Part shown: positions 649-20,679 of the stretch, in pieces
How the letters are laid out: every line of letters begins with the position of its first letter
How positions within the stretch are numbered: the stretch's first letter is position 1
DNA from: Verrucomicrobiota bacterium
GTDB taxonomy: Bacteria; Verrucomicrobiota; Verrucomicrobiia; Opitutales; Opitutaceae
Assembly: GCA_016235555.1 (NCBI GenBank)
Contig: JACRKC010000062.1
Location: 1-37,854 of the forward strand
Direction of reading: 5' to 3'
DNA: 37,854 nucleotides
Program-made: the position numbers and the translations under genes
The notes under the pieces: generated by a model
What the model saw: only the letters and a program-made list of their open reading frames with translations
What the model was told of the DNA's origin: nothing
Databases searched by the model: none

Positions 649-2148
649 ATGCGAATGACCAATGCCACGATGTATGCTCGCGTGTTCGCCAGCGACGCGA
701 GCTGCAACGGCCGCTTTTTCTTCGGCGTGACGAGCACCGGCATCTACTGCCTCCCATCGTGCCACGCGAAGAAACCCAAACCTGAAAACACGCGCTTCTT
801 CCCAACCGTCGAGGCCGCCCGCGCCGCGGGCCTGCGCGCGTGCAAGAAATGCCACCCGGACGACTTCGCCCGCGGCGCCGATCCCGTGCTCGAAACAATC
901 GAGTCGCTCGTCGCCGAAGTGCGCGCCGCGCCGCAGAATTTTCCCGATGCCCGCGCCATCGTGCGGCGCTCGGGCTTCGGGGCGACGCGCGCCTTCGAAC
1001 TCTTCCGGCAACATTACCACACCACGCCCGCCGATCTGTTGCTGCGCGCCCGGCTCGATGCAGCAAAGGCGTTACTTGTAGGTCGGGCTTTACGCCCGAC
1101 AGAAAGTGTCGGGGATAAACCCTGGTCGCCTTCGGCGCCGCCGGAGGCGGGTAAACCCCGACCTACAGATTCGCTTGCGGCGATCTCCGCCGAGGTGGGC
1201 TTCGAGTCGCTCTCGGTTTTCCACGACCACTTCCGCCGCCTCAATGGTCTCACGCCCGCGGCCTATCGCGAGTTGCGCTCCGCGCACGGCTTCGAGGTCG
1301 CGCTGCCCGAAGGTTACCTGCTGGGCTATCTGCGGCGGGCATTGAGCCGCGATATTCACAGCCTCACCGAGCGACTCAGCGGCGACGTTTATACCACGGT
1401 GGCGCAATTCAGCACCGGACCGGCGTTGATGACATTGCGCCTCTCGCCCACGTCGGTCCGCGCGGAAATCAGTGGCGGGCCGGCCTTGGAAGCCCATGCC
1501 CTCGTCGTCGGTCTGCTCGGGCTCGATGAAGAGGCCGCCGCCTTTGCGCGCCTCGCCAGACGTCTCGGCCTCGCCCGCCTCGTCACCGGCCGCCCCGAAC
1601 TCCGCATCAGCCAGACGCCTTCGGTCTTCGATGGTCTCCTCTGGTCGATCATCGGGCAACAGATCAACTTCCCATTCGCCTGCCTGCTCAAGCGCCGCCT
1701 GATCGAACGCACGAGCCAGCCGTTCGCCGAGGGACTCTACGCCCCGCCCACACCCGCGGCGGTGGCCGCCCTCGAACCGGGCGATTTGCTGCCCCTCCAG
1801 TTTTCGCGCCAGAAAGCCGACTACGTGATCCAGACCGCGCGTCTCGTGGCCGAAGGCAAACTCGATCTCGCCGCGCTGCACTCGATGTCGGCCACGCGCG
1901 CCGAGCGCACACTGCTCGCCGTGCGCGGACTCGGCCCGTGGTCGGTGAATTATCTCATGATGCGCTCGCTCGGTTTCCCCGACTGCGTGCCACTCGGCGA
2001 CACCGGCGTGACGAGCGGCCTGCAAGCCCTTCTCAAACTCGAAGTGCGCCCGGACCTCGACGCCACGCGCCGCCTCATGGCCGTCTTTTCGCCTTACCGC
2101 AGTCTCGCGACGGCCCACCTGTGGCAATTTAACCAGCCCATTCCATGA
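649..2148 (+). CDS. alkA: Ada/AlkA fusion: alkylation-responsive regulator and 3-methyladenine DNA glycosylase
   Basis: A 499-residue three-part protein. An Ada-type zinc domain comes first (about residues 5-75), with 'CLPSC' and 'CKKC' supplying the four cysteines that bind zinc and accept methyl groups from phosphotriesters. An AraC-type helix-turn-helix follows (about 90-215), then an AlkA glycosylase (about 225-495). The glycosylase has the helix-hairpin-helix '[14 protein letters not shown]' and, in 'PLGDTGV', the aspartate expected to be catalytic. It should sense alkylated DNA, activate repair genes and remove alkylated bases. ATG 649 gives a normal Ada N-terminus; a start at 553 would add 32 unlikely residues. 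The stop overlaps the ogt start (ATGA). The oddity is at residues about 143-173: between 'DAAKALL' and '[11 protein letters not shown]', where the family is continuous, the gene encodes about 30 extra residues from a palindromic repeat (1077-1167). The frame is intact. Whether DNA binding survives is unknown. Confidence 0.9.
1077..1167. repeat. REPIN-like doublet inserted in frame in the Ada/AlkA gene
   Basis: The 17-base ends (1077-1093 and 1151-1167) are inverted copies with 16 of 17 matches, each carrying TGTAGGTCGGG. The left half is a GTAG head followed by a perfect 7-bp hairpin, GTCGGGC / GCCCGAC with loop TTTAC. The right half is a longer, diverged version with extra sequence between its GTCGGGG and CCCCGAC parts. 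The same family occurs at 5453-5513 and 20594-20640 between genes. Here it is read through without a stop. Being an insertion is inferred from those other copies and from the usual shape of AraC domains. Confidence 0.9.
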
Positions 2149-2758: not shown

Positions 2759-3409
2759 GCTGCCCTGCGAGCGATGAAGGGCGACCACGAACGCCTTCAA
2801 CTTCGCGTGATCCTTCACGCCGGGCGCGGACTCGACACCGCTGTTGACGTCCACCCACCGCGCACCGCTCGCCCGCAAAGCTTCACCGATGTTGTCGGGA
2901 TTGAGCCCGCCGGAGAGAATCCAAGTCTTGTCGGCGTGCGACTGTTGGTGCCGGGAAAACTTCGCCCAGTCGCCCGTCAGGCCCGTGCCTCCGAATTTCT
3001 CCGCGTGAAACGTATCGAGCAGGAAAAACTTCGCGAACGGCAGCAGCGCTGGCGGCACATCGGCCGCGGGCGGCAACTTCGGCGCCAGCCAGAGTTTGTC
3101 GGCCCCGACCGTCGCGGACCATGCGGCGACGGCTTCAAGCGCGAGGTCGTGCTTGAAGTGAACCTGGAAGAAATCGAAACCCGCCGCCTTCATCTCCATC
3201 AACTCGGCTGCGGTCGGCTCGACCGACACCGCGACTTTCTTCCGATCCGGGAGGTGCTTCGCCATCGCACGAATCGTTTCCAACGCGACGAAGCGCGGCG
3301 ATTTCGGATAGAGGATGAACCCAAGATAATCGGCGCCGCAGCGATCGGCGAACTCCGCATCCACGAGCGAAGTGAGCCCGCAGACTTTGATTCTGATGCC
3401 ATCGATCAT
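2753..3409 (-). CDS. trpF: phosphoribosylanthranilate isomerase
   Basis: A 218-residue TIM-barrel enzyme converting phosphoribosylanthranilate to CdRP, the third step of tryptophan synthesis. The N-terminal 'IRIKVCGLTSLVDA' carries the catalytic cysteine in the family 'KxCG' motif. 'GADYLGFILYPKSPRFV' and 'ILSGGLNPDNIGEAL' (phosphate-binding) are also characteristic, and the 'DVNSGVESAPGVKDHAKL' ending contains the conserved S-G-V-E. The catalytic aspartate is expected in 'FLLDTFHAEKFGGTG'. The ATG at 3409 gives a normal start; a longer reading from 3442 would be translated from the upstream interspersed repeat and is rejected. No other trp genes are nearby. It follows the aminotransferase gene on the same strand across a 63-bp repeat. 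The TAG stop comes from the right head of the downstream REPIN-like element. Confidence 0.93.
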   Translation of the reverse strand: MIDGIRIKVCGLTSLVDAEFADRCGADYLGFILYPKSPRFVALETIRAMAKHLPDRKKVAVSVEPTAAELMEMKAAGFDFFQVHFKHDLALEAVAAWSATVGADKLWLAPKLPPAADVPPALLPFAKFFLLDTFHAEKFGGTGLTGDWAKFSRHQQSHADKTWILSGGLNPDNIGEALRASGARWVDVNSGVESAPGVKDHAKLKAFVVALHRSQGSR

Positions 3410-3420
3410 CGGAGGAGAGC

Positions 3421-3483
3421 CCACGAAACACACCAAAGACACGAAACGCCAAACTACTTTCGTGTGGTTCGTGTGTTTCGTGG
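3421..3483. repeat. 63-bp interspersed repeat, copy 1
   Basis: Perfect 13-base inverted arms (3421-3433 and 3471-3483), each CCACGAAACACAC or its complement, enclose a partly palindromic centre. It is identical at 61 of 63 positions to 4589-4651, in the same orientation. It sits one base past the aminotransferase stop and 11 bases before the trpF start, and its minus-strand translation gives false N-terminal extensions such as MSLVCFV. Confidence 0.93.
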
Positions 3484-3484
3484 G

Positions 3485-4579
3485 CTAAAAAGAATTGATG
3501 CTGTTGATCACATGCTCGACCTGCGCGTCGGTGAGCTCAGGGAAGATCGGCAGGCTGACACACGTCGCCGCCGCCTTCTCGGCCACGGGATACGAGCCCT
3601 GGCCGCGACCGAGGTGGGCGTAGCATTTCTGCAGGTGAAGCGGCACGGGATAGATGAGGTCGGTGCCGACATCGTGCTTCGCGAGGTGCTCGCGCAGCGC
3701 GTCACGCCGCGGGTGACGGATCGTGAATTGATGGAAGACCGACGGGCCGTAGCCGGGCTGGTCGGGCAGGCGCACGTCGGCGAGCTTGATCCCGGCGAGA
3801 TAGCGTCCGGCGATTTCGCGACGGCGCGCGGTCCAAGCGGCGAGATGCGGGAGCTTCACGTTGAGCAGCGCGCCTTGGAACCCATCCATCCGAAAATTAC
3901 CGCCGACGATGTCGTGATAATAACGCCGATCCGAGCCATGCACGCGGATGTGGCGGGCGCGAACATGCGTCGCCTCGTCCTTCGCGACGAGCGCCCCACC
4001 CTCGCCGCAACCGCCGAGGTTTTTAGTCGGGTAAAAGCTGAACGTGCCGGCGTCGCCAAACAGGCCCACCGGCGTGCCGCGGTAACTCGCGCCCACGGCC
4101 TGCGCGCAATCTTCGATCACGAAGAGCCGATGCTTGCGCGCGAGGGCCATGATCTCGTCCATGCGCGCGGGCTGGCCGAAGAGGTGCACCACGATGAGTC
4201 CTTTCGTGCGTGGCGTGATAGCGGCCTCGATTTTCGCCGGGTCGAGATTGAACGTGCCTTCCTCAACGTCGACGAAACGCGGCGCCGCGCCGACGTAGCT
4301 CACGCCCCAGACCGTCGAGATGAACGTGAACGGCGGCGCGATCACTTCGTCGCCCGGCCCGAAGCCCGCGATCATGCAGGCAATATGAAGCGGCGAGGTG
4401 CCGCTGTTCAGTGCCAGTGCGCGGGGGTAGCCTAGCGTGGCGGCGAAGTTCTTCTCGAAATCCTCGACGTCCTTGCCGAGGCAGAAGCGCGTGGCGTCGT
4501 AGGTCGCCGCAAGCGCGGCGAGCGCCGGTTCGCGCAGCGCGCGGTGTTGAAGAGAGAGATCGAGAAACGGGACCTTCAT
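3485..4579 (-). CDS. DegT/DnrJ/EryC1/StrS-family PLP aminotransferase
   Basis: A 364-residue aminotransferase of the family that usually aminates nucleotide-linked keto-sugars for cell-surface glycans or secondary metabolites. The PLP Schiff-base lysine is Lys186 in 'SFYPTKNLGG'. 'NSGTSPLHIA' (58-67) binds the cofactor phosphate, and Asp157 in 'VIEDCAQAVGA' contacts the pyridine nitrogen. Full length and with a normal N-terminus 'MKVPFLDLSLQ'. No sugar epimerase, dehydratase or glycosyltransferase is nearby, so the substrate cannot be given. It sits between hemD and trpF on the same strand, and 61/63-identical repeats flank it in the same orientation, one ending next to its stop and one 9 bases before its start. 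That suggests a cassette inserted into, or removable from, the hem-trp run. Confidence 0.9.
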   Translation of the reverse strand: MKVPFLDLSLQHRALREPALAALAATYDATRFCLGKDVEDFEKNFAATLGYPRALALNSGTSPLHIACMIAGFGPGDEVIAPPFTFISTVWGVSYVGAAPRFVDVEEGTFNLDPAKIEAAITPRTKGLIVVHLFGQPARMDEIMALARKHRLFVIEDCAQAVGASYRGTPVGLFGDAGTFSFYPTKNLGGCGEGGALVAKDEATHVRARHIRVHGSDRRYYHDIVGGNFRMDGFQGALLNVKLPHLAAWTARRREIAGRYLAGIKLADVRLPDQPGYGPSVFHQFTIRHPRRDALREHLAKHDVGTDLIYPVPLHLQKCYAHLGRGQGSYPVAEKAAATCVSLPIFPELTDAQVEHVINSINSF

Positions 4580-5452: not shown

Positions 5453-5513
5453 GTAGGTCGGGCTTTACGCCCGACGTGGGCGTTAAAGATGTCGGGCATG
5501 AAGCCCGACCTAC
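5453..5513. repeat. REPIN-like doublet between hemC and hemD
   Basis: Perfect 13-base inverted ends, GTAGGTCGGGCTT and complement (5453-5465 and 5501-5513). It is the same family as the insertion in the Ada/AlkA gene. The left unit shows the GTAG head and the 7-bp GTCGGGC/GCCCGAC hairpin. The right head overlaps the end of hemC: its TAG is the stop codon and its G is the third base of the last Met codon. Confidence 0.92.
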
Positions 5514-11028: not shown

Positions 11029-13266
11029 TCACGCATTGCGACCAAACAGCAGCCGCAACGAATTCACGCACACCACCAGCGTGCTCCCCTCGTGCGCGGC
11101 CACGCCGACCGCCAGCGGCACCGCCCCGAACGCGGTCGCCACCACCATGACCACCACGACTCCGAGCGAGATGGCCAGATTCTGCCGGATCACGGCCCGC
11201 GCCCGCCGGCTCAACCGCTCGGCGGCCAGGAAGTTTTCGATCCGGTCGTGCATCAGGATCACCTCCGCCTGCTCCAGCGCGGCGTCGCTGCCCCGCGCGC
11301 CCATGGCCACGCTCACATCGGCCGCGGCGAGGCTCGGCGCGTCGTTCACGCCGTCGCCCACCATCGCGATGACCCTCCCCTGCGCCCGCAACGCCTGGAT
11401 GGCCGCCACCTTGTCCTCCGGCGACAGACCCGCGCGCACCTCGTCGAGCCCCAGTTCCTTCGCCACCGCCTCCGCCGCATGACGCCGGTCGCCCGTCAGC
11501 ATCACCGTGTGGAGGCCGGCGGCTTTGAGCTCCGCCAACACGCCGCGCGACTCGGCGCGAATCTGGTCCTTCAACAGCACGCGCCCGACCAGATCCTTGC
11601 CCAGGACCCACACCTCGCTCAGCTCCGCCGCCGCGGGCGGCAGCGCCTTCGCCCATTCTGCGAGCGGTCCGCTCTCCAGCAACTCGCGCCGCCCGAGCAG
11701 CAACGTCGCGCCCTCCACCTTTCCGCGCAGCCCTTGTCCGGTCAGCGACTGAAAATCCTCCACCGCGAGTTCGCTCAAACCCTCGTTCTTCGCGTGCCGC
11801 ACGATGGCTCGCGCGATCGGGTGATGCGATTTGGCTTCCAGCGTGTAGGCCAGCTGCAGCACCTCGCGCTCCCGGCCATGGGGATAACTCTCGCAACCGA
11901 CCACGGCGAGTTCCCCGGTCGTCAGCGTGCCGGTCTTGTCGAGCGCAACGGCATCGACCTCGGCGAGTTTTTCGATGGCCGCGCCGCCACGGAACAAGAC
12001 GCCGTGCCGCGCGCCCCACGCGATGGCGGCGAGGATCGCGGAGGGAATCGACAGCACCAAGGCGCAGGGACTCGCCACGACCATCAGCGTCATGGCCCGA
12101 TAAAACGCCGATCGCACCTCCGGGGTGTTCTCGAACGCCGGCAGCCGGAATCCCAGCCACCACACCAGAAACATCAGCGTCGCCCCGCCGATCACCGCAT
12201 ACGTGTAGCCGGTGCCGAATTTGTCCGTGAAGCGCTCGCTCGGCGCCCGCAGCTTCTGCGCCGTCTGGATGAGGCGGATGATTTTTTGCAGCGTGCTCTC
12301 GCTCGGCAGTCGCGCGACCTGATAGTCCATCGCGCCCCACAGGTTCAGCGTGCCGCTGAACACCTGATCGCCCTCGCGTTTCTCGACCGGGTTGGCTTCG
12401 CCGGTGAGCGCGGACTCATCACTCGCACTCTTGCCCGACAACACCACGCCGTCCGCCGCAAACGCCTCGCCGGGCTTCACCCGCACCCGCTGCCCGACCT
12501 GCAACCGCTCGACCGCCACTTCCTCCTCGCGTCCCTCCGCGGTCACGATCGTCGCGTGCTTGGGTGAGGTTTTCAGCAGCGCGCTCACCTCCCGCTGGGT
12601 GCGGTCGAGGGCGTATTCCTCCATCGCACCGGATGCCGAAAACAAGAACAGCAGCAACACCGCCTCGCCCCACGCGCCGATGCACACCGCGCCGACGGCC
12701 ACCGCCAGCATGAGGAAATGGATGTCAACTTCGCGCTTCTTGAGGTTTTCCCACGTGTCGACCGCGGCGTCCCAGCCGCCAGCCACCAGCCCGACGGCGA
12801 AAAACAGCTTCGCCGCCCACGGTGAGCCGTGCGCGAAAAACTCCAGCGACGCGCCGGCCAATCCCGCCACCCCGCACACCGTCGCCAACACCGCGAGGGT
12901 CCGCCACTCCTGCTCCTCCGGTGCGGGCTCGGCCTTGATCTCGGGCCATTCCATCTCGCGCCACAGCCACATCTTCTCCGCGGTGACGCACGAGTCACGT
13001 CCGAGCACCGTCGCCGTGCCCTCGGTGCGCAGCGAGAATCCCATGGGCGCATTTCCGCCCGCCCGGGCTGCGAGCTTGGCCTCGATGGCCGCGATCGTCT
13101 CCGCGAGTTTCGCCTCGAATCCCGCCAAATCGACCTGCCCGACGGTGGCCACGGAAACCTTGTGCGCGGCGGGATCGATGCGCACCGCGCTGACCCCCGG
13201 CTGCGTGCGGAGGAACCGCACCAGTTCATCCACCCACTCGCTGCCCGTGTGCGCTGGATTTGCCAT
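11029..13266 (-). CDS. P1B-type heavy-metal-transporting ATPase (P1B-4-like)
   Basis: A 745-residue metal-exporting P-type ATPase. Asp443 in 'LDKTGTLTTGE' is phosphorylated. 'SHHPIARAI' is the P1B nucleotide-binding HP motif, and 'MVGDGVNDAPSLAAADVSVAMG' the hinge. The membrane metal site reads 'SPCALVLS' (Cys401), not CPC, and the last helix has 'HEGSTLVVCVNSLRLLF' (725-729 HEGST). SPC plus HEG(S/G)T is the pattern of subgroup P1B-4, whose members export cobalt, iron, zinc or cadmium, so these are likelier than copper. The N-terminus (about 1-75) looks like a ferredoxin-fold metal-binding domain but lacks CxxC. The ATG at 13266 starts this domain; upstream residues to 13350 are rejected. It is divergent from the helicase gene across 86 bases. 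No metal-responsive regulator is adjacent. Confidence 0.93.
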   Translation of the reverse strand: MANPAHTGSEWVDELVRFLRTQPGVSAVRIDPAAHKVSVATVGQVDLAGFEAKLAETIAAIEAKLAARAGGNAPMGFSLRTEGTATVLGRDSCVTAEKMWLWREMEWPEIKAEPAPEEQEWRTLAVLATVCGVAGLAGASLEFFAHGSPWAAKLFFAVGLVAGGWDAAVDTWENLKKREVDIHFLMLAVAVGAVCIGAWGEAVLLLFLFSASGAMEEYALDRTQREVSALLKTSPKHATIVTAEGREEEVAVERLQVGQRVRVKPGEAFAADGVVLSGKSASDESALTGEANPVEKREGDQVFSGTLNLWGAMDYQVARLPSESTLQKIIRLIQTAQKLRAPSERFTDKFGTGYTYAVIGGATLMFLVWWLGFRLPAFENTPEVRSAFYRAMTLMVVASPCALVLSIPSAILAAIAWGARHGVLFRGGAAIEKLAEVDAVALDKTGTLTTGELAVVGCESYPHGREREVLQLAYTLEAKSHHPIARAIVRHAKNEGLSELAVEDFQSLTGQGLRGKVEGATLLLGRRELLESGPLAEWAKALPPAAAELSEVWVLGKDLVGRVLLKDQIRAESRGVLAELKAAGLHTVMLTGDRRHAAEAVAKELGLDEVRAGLSPEDKVAAIQALRAQGRVIAMVGDGVNDAPSLAAADVSVAMGARGSDAALEQAEVILMHDRIENFLAAERLSRRARAVIRQNLAISLGVVVVMVVATAFGAVPLAVGVAAHEGSTLVVCVNSLRLLFGRNA

Positions 13267-13352
13267 GCGCGGCAGTGTTCGCCGGCCGCCCCGGTGCGGC
13301 AATTTCATTTGCGCGAAATTAGCCGGCGCCTCTTGGTAGCGCCGCCTCACTC

Positions 13353-15416
13353 ATGATAGGCCTCCACGACGACCCCGCCCCACCTGCTCCGCCGGCGCAC
13401 GCGCCCGCGCTGGCGGCGAAGATTTTTGGCGACGGCGGCTGGCTCCACGACGCCCTGCAGTTGGAACACCGCCCGCAGCAGGAGCAGATGGCCCGCGCCG
13501 TCGCCGCCGCCATGCGCGACGATGCTCCCCTGCTCTTCGAAGCCGGCACCGGCGTCGGCAAATCCCTCGCCTACCTCGCCCCCGGCGTGATCCACGCCGT
13601 CGATCAATCGCGTCAACTCATCGTCTCGACGCACACCATTTCGCTCCAGGAGCAACTCGAGCAGAGCGACCTTCCGCTCTGCCGCCGCCTCTTCCGCGCC
13701 ATCCCGGCCCTCGCCCGCTACGCCGATTTCAAGAGCGCGGTGCTCGTCGGCAAGTCGAACTACCTTTGCACCACCCGTCTCGCGACCGCGATCAAGGACC
13801 AGCAGGAATTGTTCACCGGCCCGGAGCAGAGCGAACTGCTCCGCATCGTCGAGTGGTCGCGGACCACCGAGACCGGCCTGCGCCACGAAATGAAGCCGCG
13901 GCCTAGTGACGAAGTGTGGGAGACGGTGAACGCCGACTCCTCCGGCTGCTCCAAGAAATACTGCGATTGCGACCGGTGCTTCTACCAGCGCGCCAAGCGC
14001 CGCTGCGATTCGGCGCAAGTGCTCATCGTCAACCACAGCCTGCTCTTCGCCCTGATCAACCTCGGTGCCGCCCGCGGATCGTCGCTCGCGCGCGGAGTCG
14101 TGCGGCCGGACGATTTCATCGTGCTCGACGAGGCGCACACCGTGCCCGAGGTCGCCACCGACAATTTCGGACTCGCGATCACGAGCTTCGGCTTCGATCG
14201 GCTGCTGCGTTCGATCTACAATCCGAAAAAACGAAAGGGATTCCTTGCCAAGCTGGGCGATGCATCCGCCCTGCTCGCTGTGGAGGAATGCCTTGATGCC
14301 TCCCAGCAATTCTTCGCCTTTTTGCACGATCGTCTGCTCGCGACGCGCCCGATCCTGCGCATCCGCGAGTCGAACTTCGCCGAACCCCTCCTCGACGAGC
14401 CGCTCGCCAAGCTCCTCGGCCAACTCGGCCGCCTCGAGAGCCGGCTGCCCGAAGGCAAGGTGCGCGACGAACTCGGCGACAAGATGGTGCGGCTCGCCAC
14501 CTATCGCGCCGGCCTCGGCCAGTTTCTCACTCTGGCCGGCAAGGACCAGGTCTACTGGCTGGAACTCGCCGGCAAGCACCGCTCCGTCGTCGCCATCCGC
14601 AGCGCCCCGCTCGACGTGGCGCCGAAACTGCGCGAACTGTTGTTCTCCTGCCACACCAGCGTGGTCTGCACCAGTGCCACGCTCGCGCTCGGCGGCCGGA
14701 TGGAGCCCTTCGCGGCCCGCCTCGGCGCGGATGACGCCAAGGCCGTGATCGTGAAATCGCCGTTCGATTTCGCGCGCCACATGCGCGTCTTCATCGCCCG
14801 CGATGTCCCGCTGCCCTCGCCCGCCGACGCGAAGCTCGCCCTCGATGTGCTGGCCGACTACGTGGGCTTCTGCATCGAACGCGTCGCAGGCGGCACCCTG
14901 GTGCTGTTTACCAGCTACACGGATATGCGCGCCATCGCCACCACGCTCGAACCGGCGTTTCGCGCGGCCGGGCGTCCGTTTCTCATGCAAGGCGCGGAAA
15001 TGTCCCGCACCGAACTCGCCCGGCAGATGCGGGCGCACGGCAACGCGGTGTTGTTCGGCACCGACAGTTTCTGGACCGGCGTGGACGTGCCCGGCGACGC
15101 CCTGGCGCAGGTGATCATCACGCGCCTGCCGTTCGATCCGCCGACTCACCCGGTGACCGAGGCGCGGTGCGAGCACATCCGCGAGGCCGGCGGCAGCCCC
15201 TTCAACGACCTCACGCTGCCCGACGCGATCATCAAGTTTCGCCAGGGCATCGGCCGCCTCATCCGACGCGCCAGCGACCGCGGACTCGTCACGATCCTCG
15301 ATTCGCGGGTGCTCGCGAAGACCTACGGCAAGCTTTTTCTCGATTCGCTCCCGATTTCCGAATTCACCCCGCTCCTGCTAGAAACACGTAAACGAGAATT
15401 TCGTCCTTTCGCCTGA
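13353..15416 (+). CDS. dinG: DinG-family ATP-dependent DNA helicase
   Basis: A 687-residue superfamily 2 helicase of the XPD/DinG group, which unwinds DNA 5' to 3' and acts on R-loops, D-loops and G-quadruplexes. Walker A is 'EAGTGVGKS' (63-71), and the DEAH box is at about 259-262 ('VLDEAHTVPEV'). An iron-sulfur cluster is indicated by Cys139 ('YLCTTRLA') and the cluster 'CSKKYCDCDRCF' (Cys199, 204, 206, 209), as in XPD. The second helicase domain has 'LVLFTSYTDMRAIA', 'FGTDSFWTGVDVPGDAL' and 'RQGIGRLIRRASDRG' (motif VI). No exonuclease domain is present, so it is closer to E. coli DinG/YoaA than to the Gram-positive long form. It heads a plus-strand run with the phosphatase 33 bases downstream. 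Confidence 0.93.
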   Translation: MIGLHDDPAPPAPPAHAPALAAKIFGDGGWLHDALQLEHRPQQEQMARAVAAAMRDDAPLLFEAGTGVGKSLAYLAPGVIHAVDQSRQLIVSTHTISLQEQLEQSDLPLCRRLFRAIPALARYADFKSAVLVGKSNYLCTTRLATAIKDQQELFTGPEQSELLRIVEWSRTTETGLRHEMKPRPSDEVWETVNADSSGCSKKYCDCDRCFYQRAKRRCDSAQVLIVNHSLLFALINLGAARGSSLARGVVRPDDFIVLDEAHTVPEVATDNFGLAITSFGFDRLLRSIYNPKKRKGFLAKLGDASALLAVEECLDASQQFFAFLHDRLLATRPILRIRESNFAEPLLDEPLAKLLGQLGRLESRLPEGKVRDELGDKMVRLATYRAGLGQFLTLAGKDQVYWLELAGKHRSVVAIRSAPLDVAPKLRELLFSCHTSVVCTSATLALGGRMEPFAARLGADDAKAVIVKSPFDFARHMRVFIARDVPLPSPADAKLALDVLADYVGFCIERVAGGTLVLFTSYTDMRAIATTLEPAFRAAGRPFLMQGAEMSRTELARQMRAHGNAVLFGTDSFWTGVDVPGDALAQVIITRLPFDPPTHPVTEARCEHIREAGGSPFNDLTLPDAIIKFRQGIGRLIRRASDRGLVTILDSRVLAKTYGKLFLDSLPISEFTPLLLETRKREFRPFA

Positions 15417-20456: not shown

Positions 20457-20553
20457 TGTCATTCTGAGCGGCGCGAAGAATCCAGCAGGGTGTTCGCACC
20501 GCGGAGAATGCCGCGGAAATCCAACTGGATTCTTCGCTGCGCTCAGAATGACA
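20457..20553. repeat. interspersed inverted repeat of the GTCATTCTGAGCG type
   Basis: Ends TGTCATTCTGAGCG (from 20457) and CGCTCAGAATGACA (to 20553) are perfect inverted copies. The similarity continues inward through GAAGAATCCA and TGGATTCTTC. It has no GTAG head. I recall very similar sequences scattered in several bacterial phyla; that is memory, not a search. Confidence 0.85.
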
Positions 20554-20561
20554 GGCCTTTT

Positions 20562-20679
20562 TAGAGCGGTTTCAGAAATTCTGTAGCCGTTGGGTAGGTC
20601 GGGGTTTATCCCCGACACGTCGGGCGTAAAGCCCGACCTGCTTGTCGGTCGCGGCTACTCTTCAACTTAATCCGCTCTA
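20562..20679. repeat. nested inverted repeats with a REPIN-like core (20594-20640)
   Basis: Outermost TAGAGCGG (20562-20569) pairs with CCGCTCTA (20672-20679), next GTAGCCG (20583-20589) with CGGCTAC (20652-20658). The core 20594-20640 is the same family as 5453-5513: GTAG head plus GTCGGGG/CCCCGAC with loop TTTAT, and an inverted partner whose head has drifted to GCAG. With the elements at 20330 and 20457, essentially the whole 395-base spacer is repeat sequence. Confidence 0.82.

Follow-up and report, generated by a model that had tools for sequence, protein, structure and literature searches.

The Ada/AlkA repair gene of this Opitutaceae genome contains, within the part encoding its AraC-type DNA-binding domain, a composite REPIN that is read in frame as part of the protein. 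We consider it quite probable that this reflects the in-frame insertion of a member of a REPIN family mobilised by REP-associated tyrosine transposases (RAYTs) into a loop that tolerates it. The window, by which we mean the whole stretch of 37,854 nt that was analysed, is contig 28 of a source genome of 8.03 Mb in 140 contigs, and contains the following features:

649–2148, plus strand: Ada/AlkA ORF of 499 aa with an Ada metal-binding domain, an AraC-type helix-turn-helix (HTH) domain and an AlkA-type glycosylase, assigned from the ORF, Pfam and homologues
1078–1166, plus strand: composite REPIN of 89 nt (1077–1167 including the complementary terminal T and A), read in frame as residues 144–173
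1078–1100, plus strand: left REP hairpin, 23 nt, with GTAG tail and 7-bp stem, sequence GTAGGTCGGGCTTTACGCCCGAC
1101–1107, plus strand: linker joining both REP units, delimited by comparison with the linkers of other copies
1108–1166, minus strand: right REP hairpin, in inverted orientation and with an interrupted loop, assigned from its sequence and comparison with other copies
1120–1155 (approximate), plus strand: nested second repeat of 36 bp, which folds alone as a stem-loop
5453–5513, unstranded: another REPIN copy, between hemC and hemD (minus strand)
20594–20640, unstranded: another REPIN copy, recognised by sequence match

The ORF encodes 499 aa when read from ATG 649, with an alternative start at ATG 553 giving 531 aa, and its best homologues are records titled Opitutae, Opitutaceae, Opitutus and Verrucomicrobia. 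Pfam recognised Ada_Zn_binding at residues 8–71, HTH_18 at residues 172–208 (covering only profile positions 43–79 of 80) and HhH-GPD at residues 332–477, and a PDB search with the HTH region gave no match at E 0.01. Counted from ATG 649, the REPIN insert makes up residues 144–173 (30 aa), and is located between the linker helix 'DAAKALL' of the AraC-type domain and its second helix-turn-helix. The initial annotation had placed about 30 in-frame residues between 'DAAKALL' and the next AraC segment, with a frame open through both arms and an intact glycosylase downstream, which agrees with the continuous ORF and the HhH-GPD match found here. A perfect palindrome within ogt (2271–2295; ogt 2145–2642) was also considered as an insertion, but was rejected as the aligned rows, with an alignable relative from 74/80 loci, show no such gap; its pattern occurs once in the genome.

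The inverted ends of the element (1077–1093 and 1151–1167) are arms of 17 nt with 94% complementarity, as in the 16/17 match first reported, and the left hairpin (1078–1100) is identical to 5453–5475 over 23 nt and 87% identical to 20594–20616, in line with the likeness to these two copies noted earlier. The copy at 5453–5513 had been described as intergenic, and it is indeed located between hemC and hemD, but it also provides the TAG stop codon of hemC. REPIN copies elsewhere consist of the left unit, followed by a linker and the inverted partner GTCGGGGATAAACCCCGACCTAC. The inverted partner in the Ada/AlkA gene carries a 36-bp repeat of an unrelated family in its loop, which is thereby split between GGGGATAAA and CCCCGAC. 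The element is thus of REPIN type and inverted, as first described, but the presence of a second repeat family inside the right hairpin rules out a plain 91-bp doublet. With TAAACCC present at both junctions, the ends of the nested repeat can shift by as much as 7 nt. The pattern used for this repeat found 18 copies in the genome, 14 of them within one larger repeat with common flanks and four (in the window and at loci L219, L223 and L224) with individual flanks, which indicates that the unit can stand alone. A search of the genome with the composite element returned the Ada/AlkA copy as the sole full-length match.

The REP half-site, in contrast, is abundant: a genome search for the repeat, as suggested with the initial annotation, gave 239 exact matches to the half-site pattern (123 forward, 116 reverse) versus 0 for the reversed control, and doublets with arms exactly like these number 59 across the genome. 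Among relatives, 6/56 have any half-site matches (2 to 31), and the rest have none. There are ten Y1_Tnp matches in the genome, and testing of three of these ORFs with the RAYT model NF047646 placed L175 and L176 above the curated cut-off and L180 at 79.5 versus a cut-off of 80, with REPINs flanking both sides of the L175 and L180 ORFs. The family thus combines the GTAG-tailed hairpin, the inverted pair with a short linker, the dispersed copies and the linked RAYT of GTAG-type REPINs, but departs from their extragenic position in that the Ada/AlkA copy is inside a conserved gene. A 48-bp form of the REPIN, corresponding to 16 codons, was present at 25/100 sampled sites.

Searching for homologues of the Ada/AlkA protein gave matches in 36/57 genomes, the source genome included, and 80 of the 87 loci found in GTDB genomes were kept. 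The alignment contained 99 rows, of which 95 were informative after setting aside L040 and L132 (broken ORF) and L134 and L135 (insertion site uncovered); these 95 rows represent 85 distinct homologues, with ten row pairs identical across the compared region. The REPIN insert was absent from 95/95 informative rows, ruling out an inherited, conserved insertion, and L132 (Umea2p1 bin-1006) lacks it at the DNA level as well. The span from R135 to G184 is 24 residues in 86/95 rows, 23–41 residues in nine rows and 50 residues in the window protein. The gap is therefore 26 residues (78 nt) rather than the 29–31 residues anticipated in the initial annotation, and since this net gain is smaller than the 89-nt element, the original loop has lost about 11–13 nt. 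In L132 (positions 3340–3700) and L040 (G025, contig C73, positions 13115–14525), an 8-nt gap directly after the HTH breaks the Ada/AlkA frame, which may mean that regulator and glycosylase are made as two products, or may be an assembly error.

Insertions in other genes were sought at 100 sites (fetched from 102 chosen; together 167 distinct exact half-sites), selected from the half-site listing for contigs 1–56 and, from contig 57 onwards, from doublets plus a few other sites. Ten of these 100 sites are inside conserved genes, and 10/10 are in frame and open, giving nine hosts besides Ada/AlkA, and a probable tenth:

In frame, by Pfam: Ada/AlkA
In frame, by NCBIfam: LeuS, GatB, PurL and a UvrA-like protein
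In frame, by NCBIfam: MsbA-like ABC exporter, CusA/CzcA efflux pump and xanthine dehydrogenase (XDH)
In frame, by NCBIfam: NAD(P)H-hydrate dehydratase (NnrD) and HrpA
In frame, probable eleventh host overall: histidine kinase at L278:575–2623, by HisKA (Pfam) and one distant homologue, L424

The exporter and xanthine dehydrogenase score under the curated NCBIfam cut-offs, and the TGA inside the match in CusA and NnrD is the gene's own end, 90 and 84 codons past the element, respectively. Relatives have gaps at these insertion sites, several of them where length varies, with the xanthine dehydrogenase comparison comprising two relatives only. The histidine kinase shows a 14-residue gap versus L424 at the REPIN, at 28% identity. 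Two further stretches of L278 (30–42 residues) are missing from L424 and partly match elsewhere in the genome, and we read these as more repeats within one frame. Another 62 open frames span an element, 20 of which were given to Pfam, with two matched (L278 and L270); L270 was left uncounted, its domains being well downstream of the element.

The frame was closed at eight same-strand sites flanked on either side by good coding signal (score ≥0.24), and all eight are gene junctions, with the upstream frame stopping at the element's own TAG in 8/8 and both neighbours matching gene families in 7/8. No clear frame-breaking insertion within a gene was found among the 100 sites, of which those with a good coding signal were resolved individually, and the in-frame position of all intragenic copies fits strong selection against frame-breaking copies. 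REPIN forms of 63 or 67 bp contributed 0/47 to the ten intragenic cases, versus 10/53 for the other forms (Fisher p 0.0014), a comparison chosen post hoc, after the data had been seen. The codon model was retrained on the ten genes, and its score for those ten gives no independent support; the support for the ten cases is nevertheless independent, as it comes from gene families and alignments, unlike the codon score. Before this retraining, the codon model had been led astray by antisense shadow frames: none of 20 ORFs picked by it had a Pfam match, and L262 and L255, in frame according to this first version, are actually gene junctions on the other strand.

Subtracting the net gain from the element length gives a shortfall of 11 nt in Ada (versus the length common to 86/95 rows), 12 nt in LeuS (11/13 relatives), 16 nt in GatB (7/7 relatives), 14 nt in NnrD (5/7 relatives), 1 nt in PurL (5/8 relatives) and 0 in XDH (2/2 relatives). 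For the UvrA-like protein, exporter, efflux pump and HrpA, loop length is too variable to give a shortfall, the value for HrpA being 27 by median. A speculative and on balance improbable reading of these numbers is that REPIN insertion here replaces a short stretch of target, which would suit the addition of peptides to permissive loops and the stacking of repeats. If true, it would, taken with the 48-bp form of the REPIN, make REPINs a mobile element that adds peptides to protein loops, including those of repair proteins.

We propose that a GTAG-type REPIN family multiplied in this genome, with a REP-associated tyrosine transposase very likely being the mover, and that one copy would have inserted into the short loop joining the linker helix to the second HTH. 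About 11–13 nt of the loop would have been lost at that step, for a net gain of 42 nt, and insertion alone does not account for these missing bases. The 36-bp palindromic repeat would afterwards have inserted into the right REP hairpin, within its loop, and the gene has kept a single open frame because each net change was a multiple of three and brought no stop codons. The glycosylase and metal-binding domains would be unaffected by these events, with the full-length protein probably produced and still working.

The effect of the insert on the protein was assessed with an AlphaFold model based on 50 sequences (the window protein plus 49 of the 80 loci; L127, which has a stop codon, and L137 were dropped). 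The model has a mean pLDDT of 83.7, with helices 127–145 and 176–183 retained on either side of the insert, residues 151–170 at a pLDDT of about 47–53, and the flanking HTH mostly >90. Most likely, the 30 added residues are disordered and make a tolerated loop ahead of the second HTH; the prediction lends this weak support, since the gap in the alignment itself favours such a loop. The conserved residues of the second helix-turn-helix are present in the window protein, and the relative ratio of its terminal branch was 0.98 for the HTH (rank 26 of 50), 0.86 for the second HTH (rank 27), 1.01 for the glycosylase (rank 31) and 1.33 for the metal-binding domain (rank 42 of 50, somewhat long). This test has low power, as the closest homologue lies at a distance of 0.32 substitutions per site.

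The initial annotation had suggested that the insert may disable the regulator while sparing the enzyme, in which case AraC-type promoter binding would be abolished within a protein that is still an active glycosylase. The site between both helix-turn-helices, where loop length is fixed in 86/95 rows, and the absence of about four loop codons give this reading some appeal, and the fixed length suggests some constraint. We nevertheless consider it unlikely, given the normal HTH residues and branch length, the preserved predicted fold, the 3 to 17 extra residues in the same loop of 5/95 homologue rows, and the nine other host genes that keep their frame, several of which are usually essential. 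Given so distant a nearest homologue, a regulator in decay after a recent insertion would present the same picture as one that tolerates it, but the suggested loss of regulation found no support in the features compared here.

The full-length protein could also be absent: a hairpin in the mRNA would then halt or fragment translation, leaving activity only in pieces of the fusion. The predicted RNA fold of the whole 91 nt is very stable (−55.2 kcal/mol, z −5.97), and such a strong hairpin could hinder translation; the frames of L132 and L040 broken right after the HTH also indicate that split forms may occur. This explanation is, however, very unlikely in our judgement, as the frame survived two insertions and no terminator-like site was found in 1000–1250.

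We give still less credence to the insertion being favoured, with repeat-tagged repair proteins altering activity and raising the mutation rate, as was speculated for REP-tagged repair genes by Di Nocera et al. (2013, PMC3733652). A REPIN is likewise present in the UvrA-like gene of this genome, and the Ada/AlkA gene of genome G003 (single contig, 5,957,605 bases) contains an insert of 29 residues in a different linker, at residue 279. A search with this insert gave 56 matches in G003, its own gene included (40/205 candidates scored); the other matches cover the first 16–30 nt of the insert, and some are both strands of one place. Different in-frame repeats are thus present in the Ada/AlkA gene of two genera, which together with the UvrA-like gene makes the older mutator speculation testable. 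However, loop tolerance accounts for these sites equally well, and only 1/9 well-supported hosts is a repair gene when Ada, which was chosen by the initial reader, is excluded, and for this reason we do not claim enrichment of repair genes. The linker between HTH and glycosylase (window residues ~270–279) also has extra residues in L049, L082, L086 and L098; the DNA of the inserts in L082, L086 and L098 appears palindromic by eye only, and the first part of that in L049 is a genomic repeat.

Misplacement of a repeat into the gene by the assembler is scarcely credible: repeats do mislead assemblers and the assembly consists of 140 contigs, but both flanks belong to the same gene and are colinear, the composite is the sole full-length match in the genome and is in frame, and nine further genes show the same pattern.

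The tolerated in-frame insertion can be compared with three known systems. Classical REPINs are intergenic; as in the REPINs associated with RAYTs in Pseudomonas and other bacteria, the family described here consists of an inverted REP pair with a short linker, has a high copy number and is linked to a RAYT, but the window copy and at least nine others are located within reading frames. The Rickettsia palindromic elements (RPE), rightly named in the initial annotation as a close parallel, are likewise palindromes read in frame in proteins that are likely still working, and in-frame insertion with the frame kept applies to 10/10 well-supported intragenic copies here and to the eleventh. Their CGTC tag is absent, however: RPE-4 and RPE-6 carry it, and CGTC repeats seem to have no transposase of their own according to Di Nocera et al. 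(2013, PMC3733652), whereas the present family has a GTAG tag and RAYTs.

The same paper reports REPs inside ORFs in several species, with most of those of the GTAG type in Opitutus terrae, and the original view that an in-frame position would be unusual for REP-type elements thus does not hold. Over half of the intragenic inserts described there are dimers or groups encoding 20–30 aa, many are in genes for DNA synthesis or repair, REPs provide TAG stops to neighbouring genes, and some genomes have REPs inserted within small palindromes. As far as that description goes, the O. terrae elements share with ours the GTAG hairpins, inverted dimers positioned wholly inside ORFs, an encoded length of 20–30 aa, repair and RNA genes as hosts, the association with RAYTs and the TAG stops. 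They differ in that the loop of one REP hairpin in the window harbours a nested repeat of a second family, and in that the host is an Ada/AlkA fusion, which is unnamed in the available text, the comparison being one of descriptions and not of consensus sequences. Neither the Ada/AlkA case nor the nesting of one repeat within the loop of a REP was found in the literature searched, including the available text of PMC3733652, and no other work on intragenic REPINs in Opitutaceae was recognised among the papers listed. In-frame REPs in Opitutaceae were therefore already known, and what is fresh here is the nested repeat and the loss of target bases. The present genome extends in-frame REPs in Opitutaceae beyond O. 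terrae, and indicates that conserved housekeeping enzymes accept them.

The peptides GRDGSPSRPE, GRLGE(A/P)SLP and HSERSEES recur in several ORFs (L416, encoding HrpA; L412, encoding the UvrA-like protein; and L178), which at the sequence level suggests that further repeat families are read in frame in this genome. An inverted repeat, TGTCATTCTGAGCG...CGCTCAGAATGACA, is located at 20457–20553 of the window, and we take it to be a possible member of the family from which the HSERSEES peptide originates.
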